53,993 nt of DNA from Candidatus Azambacteria bacterium (lineage in GTDB: Bacteria; Patescibacteriota; Minisyncoccia; GWC2-36-17; WO2-46-25): contig JACQDT010000013.1 of NCBI GenBank assembly GCA_016200965.1, positions 1-53,993 on the forward strand. The letters are read 5' to 3'. Made by a program: the position numbers and the translations under genes. Positions 37,366-53,218 of the stretch are shown here, in pieces (the first letter of the stretch is position 1; each line of letters begins with the position of its first letter). The notes beneath the pieces were generated by a model. It was not told the DNA's origin and searched no databases. It saw only the letters and a list, made by a program, of their open reading frames with translations.

Positions 37366-38370
37366 ATGTCATTTTCCATCGGCATCGTCGGGCTTCCGAA
37401 CGTGGGTAAATCAACGTTGTTTAAAGCGCTCACGAAAAAACAGGTGGACATCCAGAATTATCCGTTCTGCACCATAGACCCAAACGTGGGCGTGGTGACG
37501 GTTCCCGATGAGCGGCTGGACAAGCTCGCGGCGTTCTCGCATTCAAAAAAAACAGTGCCGACGGTGATAGAATTTTTCGATATCGCGGGTCTCGTGAAGG
37601 GCGCGCACGAGGGTGAGGGGCTTGGCAACCAGTTTTTGTCGCACATCAAAGAAACCAAAGCCATCGCGCACGTGGTGAACCTTGAGCTGATATTTGCCGA
37701 CCTTGCCGCAACAACGAGGCGGCTCGAAAAAAACGCGCGCGACGCACGGGCCGGCGTTAAAGAAGCCGTTGCCCAAAAAGCGACGCTCGAAAAAATAAAA
37801 ACCGCCCTTGAAACCGGGGCGCTCGCCCATACACTATCGTTTACCGACCAAGAAATACCATTCGTAAAAGAGCTTAATCTTCTTACCTCAAAACCCATCC
37901 TCTACGTGTTAAACAAAAAAACAGGCGCCAAAAACGTTGAGGGGGTAACCGCGTATCTTTCCAAAAACAATCTCGCGTGGGTAATGCTTGATGCCAACAC
38001 CGAGCTGATGCTCGGCGAGCTTCAAGAAAATGACCGAAAAGAATATCAAAAAGAATTCGGGCTTTCGGAACAATCGGGGCTGGATGATCTTATCAAAAAA
38101 AGCTACGAGCTTTTGGGGCTTATCACGTACCTCACCACCGGCGAAGACGAAACGCGGGCATGGACGATACGGCGCGGCACTAAAGCGCCGCAGGCGGCTG
38201 CCGAAATCCACACCGATTTTGAAAAGAAATTCATCCGCGCCGAAGTTATCAACTGGCAAATACTGCTAGATGCCGGCTCCTACGCCGCCGCACGCGAAAA
38301 AGGCCTGCTCCGCACCGAAGGGAAAGAGTACGTCGTGAAAGACGGCGACGTGATGGAGTTTAAGATTTAA
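37366..38370 (+). CDS. ychF: Ribosome-binding ATPase YchF
   Basis: The start is placed at ATG 37366 (334 aa), where MSFSIGIVGLPNVGKST begins the nucleotide-binding fold; the earlier reading adds 13 non-conserved residues. Asn in the G4-like NKKTG motif and the C-terminal TGS-like domain (EVINWQILLDAGSYAAAREKGLLRTEGKEYVVKDGDVMEFKI) are present. It is slightly shorter than the usual ~363 aa. The last 67 bp recur twice downstream, which marks this 3' end as an insertion target. Confidence 0.96.
   Translation: MSFSIGIVGLPNVGKSTLFKALTKKQVDIQNYPFCTIDPNVGVVTVPDERLDKLAAFSHSKKTVPTVIEFFDIAGLVKGAHEGEGLGNQFLSHIKETKAIAHVVNLELIFADLAATTRRLEKNARDARAGVKEAVAQKATLEKIKTALETGALAHTLSFTDQEIPFVKELNLLTSKPILYVLNKKTGAKNVEGVTAYLSKNNLAWVMLDANTELMLGELQENDRKEYQKEFGLSEQSGLDDLIKKSYELLGLITYLTTGEDETRAWTIRRGTKAPQAAAEIHTDFEKKFIRAEVINWQILLDAGSYAAAREKGLLRTEGKEYVVKDGDVMEFKI
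38304..38370 (+). repeat. ychF 3' end, native copy of a triplicated 67-bp segment
   Basis: Encodes LLRTEGKEYVVKDGDVMEFKI-stop. It recurs at 39153-39217 (diverged, mostly synonymous changes) and at 40331-40397 (64 of 67 identical). These look like attachment-site or gene-end duplications made when elements entered the ychF end. Confidence 0.85.
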
Positions 38371-38414: not shown

Positions 38415-38452
38415 CATGTCGTTATTCCCGCTATCGCTGGAATAACGACATG
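38415..38452. repeat. 38-bp palindrome G1
   Basis: 14-bp perfect arms CATGTCGTTATTCC / GGAATAACGACATG around CGCTATCGCT. It stands 13 bp beyond the stop of the Cas2-like gene and 44 bp beyond ychF. The same outer arms occur at 39071 and 53181. Confidence 0.9.
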
Positions 38453-38465
38453 ACTGCTACAATCA

Positions 38466-39038
38466 TCACACATGGAAACGACGCTTCAAATCAAGCTCAT
38501 TATCCACTTCTTTCGCCGTCACAAATCGAACATACGGCTTCACTTCAAATAGCTCCGCAAGAAAATCTATTTCATCCCTGCAGGGATACGGATGCACAAA
38601 AACGCTTTTCTGCATCTGGAGAAAACCGGCGCGCTTCAGCTTCCCCGCAAGCGCGTCCCTTCCCTTTTTATGCCGCTCGGGGATATCAAACATCACCAGC
38701 CGCCACAAACCATCCCAGCGCGCGGGTTTTTTAACACATACCGCCTCCGGATGATACTGAAGCGCGCGGCGCTTCCCTTGCTCGTTCAAAACAAGCGTGA
38801 GGGTGCCGTCTTCGTGTTCTTGGTAATCAATAAGCTTTGATTGATAAAGTCGCCGTATGGAGTCCCGCAAGCTCCGCTGATTGATCTTTTGCCACTCCTT
38901 CACCGCAGATTTGATAAGGAAAATAGTCCTGTCCGGACGGCGAGAAAATGAAAGCGCGAAACCGGCGTACAGCAACAACAGTGTTTTCTGCGCCACCTGC
39001 CCCATCTTTTCCCTCTGTTTCGTCTTGGTGATCATCAT
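38466..39038 (-). CDS. Cas2-like/PaaX-like protein
   Basis: 190 aa. An N-terminal basic winged-helix part (WQKINQRSLRDSIRRLYQSKLIDYQE, then GTLTLVLNEQGKRRAL) is followed by a ferredoxin-like domain WRLVMFDIPERHKKGRDALAG, KSVFVHPYPCRDEIDFLAELF, as in Cas2 and the PaaX C-terminus. Proteins of this type are frequent solo genes in Parcubacteria genomes and are often annotated as Cas2. No cas1, other cas gene or CRISPR array is present. The gene is bracketed by two copies of a 38-bp palindrome and followed by a copy of the ychF end, so it looks like a mobile unit. Confidence 0.85.
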   Translation of the reverse strand: MMITKTKQREKMGQVAQKTLLLLYAGFALSFSRRPDRTIFLIKSAVKEWQKINQRSLRDSIRRLYQSKLIDYQEHEDGTLTLVLNEQGKRRALQYHPEAVCVKKPARWDGLWRLVMFDIPERHKKGRDALAGKLKRAGFLQMQKSVFVHPYPCRDEIDFLAELFEVKPYVRFVTAKEVDNELDLKRRFHV

Positions 39039-39070
39039 AGAAAATCATGTAAAATCGTTGATTGAAACCC

Positions 39071-39108
39071 CATGTCGTTATTCCCGCTATCGCGCGAATA
39101 ACGACATG
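39071..39108. repeat. 38-bp palindrome G2
   Basis: Same outer sequence as G1 (CATGTCGTTATTC / GAATAACGACATG, 13 bp) with a CGCTATCGCG centre, 33 bp before the Cas2-like start codon. Confidence 0.9.
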
Positions 39109-39152
39109 AATGTAGATATAGAGTAATATAAATTTCCGGGTAAAACAAAAAA

Positions 39153-39217
39153 TCCTCCGCACCGAGGGAAAGGGATACGTCGTAAAAGACGGGGATGTTA
39201 TGGAATTCAAAATCTAA
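39153..39217 (+). repeat. Diverged second copy of the ychF 3' end
   Basis: Encodes LRTEGKGYVVKDGDVMEFKI-stop. Differences from the native copy are mostly at third codon positions, as if it came from another strain's ychF rather than arising by decay in place. Confidence 0.8.
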
Positions 39218-39231
39218 AGCGACTCTTATAT

Positions 39232-39269
39232 TCCACCCATTTTCCCGCATATGCGGGAAAATGGGTGGA
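39232..39269. repeat. Perfect 38-bp palindrome H
   Basis: Arms TCCACCCATTTTCCCGC and GCGGGAAAATGGGTGGA around ATAT; every base is paired. Its length and central -GC-ATAT-GC- plan match family G though the arms differ. It lies 14 bp after the second ychF end. Confidence 0.85.
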
Positions 39270-40288: not shown

Positions 40289-40330
40289 ATTTTATCAAGC
40301 CGAAAAGACATTGTCAATTTAAACAAAATG

Positions 40331-40397
40331 CCTGCTCCGCACCGAAGGGAAAGAGTACGTCGTGAAAGACGGCGACGTGGCGGAGTTTAAGATTTGA
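40331..40397 (+). repeat. Third copy of the ychF 3' end
   Basis: 64 of 67 bases are identical with the native ychF end; it reads LLRTEGKEYVVKDGDVAEFKI-stop. The convergent copZ stop codon and its last codons lie inside this copy, so the pre-insertion order was most likely ychF converging on copZ. Confidence 0.85.
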
Positions 40398-52147: not shown

Positions 52148-53170
52148 ATGACCGTCAAAAAAATATATATCGGCGGGTGGTTTCAACGAACGACACTGCA
52201 TCTCACGGAAATGTGGGATTTTTTGAAATACGGGATGTCGCGGCTTGATTTCCCTCCTGCGGAACTTGCAAAAGCGCGCGCCTTGCTTGCCATCGCCAAC
52301 GTCACGCGCGAAAGCGGGCCGCTTGAATATCTTTTGGTGGAGACATCAGTGGGAATCAGCTACCGCATCTACGAAGACGGGCTCATCATTCTTGAAAAAG
52401 ATTTTCGTTCGCTCAAAGAGGACTTTGCCGATATCAAAGATTACTACGACAACAAGCTGTCCAAAGCGCTTTCGCTCATTTTCAGCAAGGGCGCGCCGGT
52501 GCCCAAAGAACTGGCAAGCATCCAAACCAACCTGCGCGACGAAACGCTCGCGCGGCACATCATCGAATCGCAGATATTTTTCCGCGAATTCAAATCACAG
52601 CTCGCCCGCTATCTCGCCATCCATCGGCTCGTGTGGGAAAAAATAGAACGCATCAAAGAGCGCGAAAAAATAAAGGGGAACGAGATCGACGGCCTGCGCA
52701 ACGAGCTTTCGGATTATCAAAAGACCATTCATCTCATCGGCGCGCGCATCGACCAGATGGACGCTTACCTTAAAACGCGCCAGAAACTCACTGACCTCAA
52801 AACGATGGACGAATACCTCCAGCCGCTGTTTCAATTCAAATTTGAGACGCTTGCCGATACGCACGCCTACATCAAACACCTCTAGAAGATGACGGAGGAA
52901 TATCTGAATTCCGCCATCCAGATGTTTTCCGACCTCCAGCAAAAAAGCACCAAAAACACCATTTCGTCTCTGCAACTGGTCACCACCATCGGCGTGGTGG
53001 CGGCAATCCTCGGCTACCTGGGCAAAGACACGCTCCCGAAATTCACGTCCGTGGGCATGGTGTACTTTGGCCTGCTCATGGCAATGACCTGGGCGATCAA
53101 CACCGTCATCGCGAAATTTTTCCGCAACAAAAAATACCCCGTCAAAAGCCGGGAGTTGAAGAAACTCTGA
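52148..53170 (+). pseudogene. Coiled-coil, two-helix membrane protein, split by an in-frame UAG
   Basis: The readings 52148-52885 (245 aa) and 52889-53170 (93 aa) are in the same frame with only TAG-AAG between them: ...IKHL-TAG-K-MTEEYLNSAI. The joined protein of ~340 aa would be coiled-coil (RIKEREKIKGNEIDGL...), ending in two membrane helices (TTIGVVAAILGYLG and SVGMVYFGLLMAMTWAIN), as in CorA-like transport or sensor proteins. UAG may be a nonsense mutation (TGG to TAG), a sequencing error or a read-through site. Confidence 0.75.
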
Positions 53171-53180
53171 AAATCAAGAA

Positions 53181-53218
53181 CATGTCGTTATATTTGCTAT
53201 AGCAAATATAACGACATG
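53181..53218. repeat. 38-bp palindrome G3 (solo)
   Basis: A perfect 38-bp palindrome with outer arms CATGTCGTTAT and a centre TATAGC that is fully self-complementary. It has no Cas2-like gene beside it. Confidence 0.9.

Follow-up and report, generated by a model that had tools for sequence, protein, structure and literature searches.

In the tiny Patescibacteria, a small gene related to the CRISPR protein Cas2 repeatedly sits between two copies of its own private DNA palindrome, and gene and palindromes turn up together at unrelated genome positions, which points to a very small mobile element of approximately 0.65 kb. Mobility of the unit is well supported, whereas catalysis by the encoded protein is inferred. 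The element was first noticed in a 53,993-nucleotide stretch of DNA (hereafter the window) comprising positions 1 to 53,993 of contig JACQDT010000013.1 of a Candidatus Azambacteria bacterium (assembly GCA_016200965.1, 866 kb), where the initial annotation had proposed an approximately 0.7-kb mobile unit whose ends are the palindromes and whose single protein handles them, much as REP-associated transposases do, with a third, gene-less palindrome as a possible relic. Our analysis confirmed the observation and supports this interpretation, although it has not been shown that the protein itself cleaves or moves the palindromes. The relevant features of the window are as follows.

38415..39108, minus strand: the whole mobile unit, palindrome, Cas2-like gene, palindrome (694 bp)
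38466..39038, minus strand: Cas2-like/PaaX-like protein of 190 aa, with a predicted N-terminal winged helix and a predicted C-terminal ferredoxin-like Cas2 domain with D118, Q143 and S145
38415..38452, no strand assigned: downstream end palindrome, 14-bp perfect arms around CGCTATCGCT, 13 bp after the stop
39071..39108, no strand assigned: upstream end palindrome, a direct repeat of the downstream one, 32 bp before the start
53181..53218, no strand assigned: solo palindrome of the same type, perfect over 19+19 bp, 10 bp after the stop of the plus-strand ORF 52889-53170
39232..39269, no strand assigned: solo palindrome of a second type (CCACCCATT..AATGGGTGG), matching the downstream site of another family gene in this genome, on contig C35
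37327..38370, plus strand: ychF, the 3' neighbour, whose last ~25 codons recur at 39145-39215 and 40325-40395

The two flanking sites, CATGTCGTTATTCCCGCTATCGCTGGAATAACGACATG (38415-38452) and CATGTCGTTATTCCCGCTATCGCGCGAATAACGACATG (39071-39108), are imperfect palindromes of approximately 38 bp in direct orientation, while the third, at 53181-53218, shares the same outer 11 bp but has another inside and is perfect over 38 bp. None is expected by chance in 100 dinucleotide-preserving shuffles, and CATGTCGTTAT occurs nowhere else in the assembly, so that only three such palindromes exist in the genome. The distance from the upstream palindrome to the start codon is 32 bp, rather than the 33 bp given in the initial annotation, which also missed the perfect 38-bp palindrome at 39232-39269. 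The copy of the ychF tail that it reported after the unit is real (39145-39215, 73% DNA identity), and there is a second at 40325-40395 (96%). These repeats of the 3' end of ychF (38298-38368) lie behind small toxin-antitoxin-like genes (HicAB in the window), and a similar arrangement occurs between small toxin-antitoxin-like ORFs in a second genome (G001, contig C6, 6090-6185), as if cassettes had been inserted stepwise into the ychF 3' end, each bringing its own ychF tail. This was seen in two of nine genomes of the order. The solo palindrome at 53181 follows two in-frame ORFs of 245 and 93 aa (52148-53170) separated by a single TAG stop. The first has no homologue in the three other family genomes, and no orthologue of this solo could be placed, as its upstream gene has no homologue in the family.

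To determine how widely the arrangement occurs, we searched for the gene in related genomes. The source genome has six family loci, of which the others carry different palindromes, and in which one gene carries a stop and one appears frameshifted. Of 142 relatives, mostly of the same class, 88 have the gene, with up to 13 copies, and 121 of 380 genomes sampled over the phylum have it. Titles of the best GTDB loci name Azambacteria, Giovannonibacteria, Wolfebacteria, Nomurabacteria, Niyogibacteria and other Patescibacteria, and one is titled Omnitrophota. One viral contig carries a relative without paired sites, and no plasmid match was found for the element. We subsequently aligned the upstream and downstream flanks of each gene to each other. 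In 133 loci, 115 beat 99% of pairs made across loci, and with 178 genes, 157 passed a score of 15, against 4 of 187 other genes of the same loci, while 21 of the 178 lack a detectable pair. E. coli paaX did not pass (score 8-10). In loci from the phylum-wide search, 23 of 30 passed. These results indicate that paired sites are the rule for this family.

Alignment of 230 sites on their centres revealed an 8-bp core (consensus NCKATMGN; position 1 T 85%, position 3 G 94%; commonest ACGATCGT, GCGATAGC, GCTATAGC and GCGATCGC), paired at 77-94%, followed on each side by four largely unpaired linker positions (5-8, mostly 53-63%) and then ten paired positions (9-18, 68-85%) with gene-specific sequence. 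The median distance between the two centres is 650 bp. The four half-sites of a unit agree at 0.83 in the arms, a value that includes self-comparisons, against ~0.34 between units. Notably, the unpaired linkers of the two ends also agree (0.73 against 0.34 shuffled), and do so more than the two sides of one site (0.59), so the ends descend from a common template rather than from selection for symmetry alone. Among the pairs of ends, 51 are clearly direct, 18 clearly inverted and 46 undefined.

The arms also track the relatedness of the proteins. Arm identity rises from about 0.34 below 50% protein identity to 0.84 above 90%. A global Mantel test was barely above permutation because arms diverge fast below ~55% protein identity, and a test restricted to close pairs was therefore used. 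For 89 pairs at least 65% identical but with unrelated flanks, arm agreement was 0.52 against 0.34 permuted, a value never reached in 5000 permutations. For example, the window protein and its 70% relative in genome G002 share CATGT(C/T)GTTATTCCCGC, while the genomic places differ (ychF in the window, metG in G002).

Several lines of evidence support transposition-like behaviour. Copies 65-83% identical lie in unrelated contexts, and those at unrelated positions of one genome are 69-83% identical, including the loci L096/L097 (82%), L120/L121 (83%), L105/L107/L108 (78-82%) and L076/L078 (77%). Their alignments, and averages over 56 pairs, fall to background about 20 bp outside the palindrome centres on both sides, defining the boundaries of the unit. 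In genome G126, the orthologous places of four units of its sister species G011 (L047, L048, L049 and L050) carry neither gene nor matching palindrome; the ftsA-ftsZ gap, for example, is under 10 bp in G126 and about 1.1 kb with the unit in G011. Genome G063 likewise lacks the L097 unit of G124. Given that these empty sites are at roughly 77-86% DNA identity, exact junctions are not resolved and loss cannot be told from gain in a single case, but the presence of related units in unrelated places needs movement. For the window unit itself, the ychF and metG neighbourhoods differ too much between the four family genomes to give clean junctions. No target-site duplication was detectable, in that no diagonal stood out in the comparison, although many mobile elements have none.

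Solo palindromes are dispersed on their own. In 800 kb of the single-contig genome G063 and most of G126, candidate sites not next to a family gene number 29 and 22, respectively, and while some of these are terminators or chance inverted repeats, shuffled sequence gives none. Many solos are of the type of a gene resident in that genome or its sister species. In G126, ten match the two resident genes, five of them inside copies of one MITE, and two match genes found in G011 but not detected in G126. The outer arms of this repeated ~100-bp element recur in genome G040 around another centre, so the palindrome rides in an unrelated MITE in G126. At one orthologous MITE (L349 in contig C41 of G011 and L317:342 in contig C12 of G126), the central palindrome is of the L047 type in one species and of the L016 type in the other. 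Two solos are identical over 36 bp, asymmetric linkers included, with unrelated flanks, which is consistent with dispersal of the palindrome either by itself or as the scar of gene loss. Intriguingly, one orthologous solo (L312:492 in G126 and contig C42 ~17090 in G011) appears to have its asymmetric linkers in opposite orientation in the two species, as if flipped in place. In L050 (522-1959), three palindromes of the same type in a row enclose first a 173-aa secreted-looking ORF and then the Cas2-like gene, so it is possible that the sites carry cargo.

The window protein matches PaaX_M (E=1.2e-22) in its C-terminal half and, weakly, CRISPR_Cas2 (E=2.4e-4). Among 81 members, all match PaaX_M and 67 hit PF09827, while no transposase or recombinase domain was found. 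G88, W108, W112, D118, Q143, S145 and P150 are invariant in 81 of 81 sequences, whereas no His column is conserved and Tyr reaches at most 70%. W108, D109 and W112 also occur in E. coli PaaX, but D118 and Q143 do not. D118 lies at the end of the first strand, which appears to be where Cas2 nucleases keep their aspartate. The AlphaFold model (pLDDT 87) is confident in the Cas2 part (mostly 93-98) and fair in the winged helix, and Foldseek returned PaaX 8a39, then Rv0674, then Cas2-fold proteins.

Based on the data presented above, we favour, with moderate confidence, a minimal mobile element made of one gene between two direct copies of a ~40-bp palindromic site, inserted as a whole unit, and perhaps as the palindrome alone, at new, mostly intergenic places. 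The protein probably works as a homodimer, with each winged helix reading one outer arm, while the paired Cas2-like domains sit over the core and cut or join DNA there. Binding, cleavage at the core and the dimer geometry are inferred, as is a shared-template step, for example a circle with one palindrome, that would keep the two ends identical. The step from a mobile unit with a co-varying protein to the protein as the enzyme rests on the co-variation, the invariant Cas2 residues and the lack of any other gene, without binding or cleavage data. The main caution is a second kind of palindrome-flanked unit of ~320-340 bp (G063 323255-323574; L326 14077-14416 in G126), which has palindromes centred on CTG|CAG, solo copies in both genomes and a 92-99-aa ArsR/MarR-like winged-helix gene without a Cas2 domain. 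Either this is a relative using a partner's enzyme, or palindrome flanking does not need the nuclease fold.

Alternative explanations appear unlikely, but cannot be excluded. The protein could be only a PaaX-like repressor binding its own flanking operators, with gene and operators spreading passively by horizontal transfer and illegitimate recombination. The domain architecture, the best structural match and the position of the upstream site where a promoter would be (median 49 bp from the start) are consistent with this. However, a downstream site copying even the unpaired linkers is not needed for autoregulation, paralogues occupy unrelated contexts of one genome, solos are dispersed, with those at 53181 and L312:492 lying after genes rather than in promoters, and D118 is kept in all members but not in E. 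coli PaaX. Similarly, the palindromes might themselves be the selfish element, moved as hairpin repeats by host processes or another enzyme, with the Cas2-like or winged-helix gene a binder that became attached to them. Solo candidates do outnumber flanking sites in G063 and G126, winged-helix-only units exist, and a palindrome is amplified inside an unrelated MITE in G126. Nonetheless, many solos are of the type of a resident or sister-species gene and the arms follow the protein, so the gene product matters.

A lox-cre-lox kind of cassette, in which direct-repeat sites with inverted arms and an asymmetric core recombine to excise and reinsert the gene and leave solos as scars, would fit the mostly direct ends, the concerted evolution of both ends and the apparently inverted orthologous solo. 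We also consider this unlikely, as empty sites carry no palindrome, so a pre-existing site is not required for insertion, about a quarter of the clear cases are inverted, and there is no recombinase fold. Least likely is that the palindromes act as RNA hairpins, such as terminators or processing sites of the transcript. They lie just outside gene ends and G.T mismatches slightly exceed A.C (120 vs 91), but this excess is weak, the core is symmetric as DNA, there is no Rfam match, and hairpin function does not explain mobility or arm-protein co-variation.

Our literature searches, within open-access papers only, found no description of this element. A more far-reaching possibility, which we offer only tentatively, is a phylum-wide class of transposable element whose transposase is a winged-helix Cas2-fold nuclease acting on palindromic repeats. 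It would be the first mobile element known to us with a Cas2-type enzyme, and a candidate relative of the ancestral source of Cas2 in CRISPR adaptation, and the palindromes may also carry other genes as cassettes. Cas2-like proteins that profile libraries call stray CRISPR or PaaX relatives are scattered through Patescibacteria, and the present findings give them a common anatomy and a testable job. If the protein moves its palindromes, it would add a new enzyme fold to transposition, offer one of the smallest autonomous mobile elements, supply hundreds of naturally matched protein-site pairs for learning DNA recognition, and bear on where Cas2 came from.

In organisation, the element strongly resembles REP/RAYT (REP-associated tyrosine transposases, TnpA_REP), in which a single gene is flanked by two short imperfect palindromes, palindrome and protein co-evolve, and solo palindromes are dispersed (PMC2817692, PMC3733652). 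However, RAYTs are HUH/Tyr enzymes with GTAG-headed REPs in inverted orientation and tens to hundreds of copies, whereas here there is no HUH motif or catalytic tyrosine and no Y1 transposase Pfam hit in 81 members, the outer positions are A/T-rich with no fixed GTAG/GTGG head, the ends are mostly direct, and there are few copies of each palindrome and several gene/palindrome types per genome, so this is not a RAYT. IS200/IS605 Y1 transposons are likewise small single-gene elements with subterminal hairpins, and they lack a target duplication, as may the present element, but the protein described here has no Y1 transposase domain or catalytic residues, and the palindromes are the ends themselves. 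The PaaX phenylacetate repressor shares the winged helix followed by a PaaX_M Cas2-like domain, but the window protein has 190 aa instead of 316 and scores far below the TIGR02277 cut-off (37 against 264.55 bits), and no paa genes were recognised among the ORFs around it. CRISPR Cas2 and VapD nucleases share the ferredoxin-like domain and the DIP and QxSVF motifs, while the family has an extra winged helix and is multi-copy and palindrome-bounded; no cas gene was recognised among the neighbouring ORFs, although neither the window nor the genome was searched for cas1 or arrays. Finally, lox/dif-type recombination sites also have inverted arms around a short, sometimes asymmetric core, in direct repeat around a gene, but in the element described here there is no tyrosine or serine recombinase, the arms differ for every gene, and empty sites lack the palindrome.
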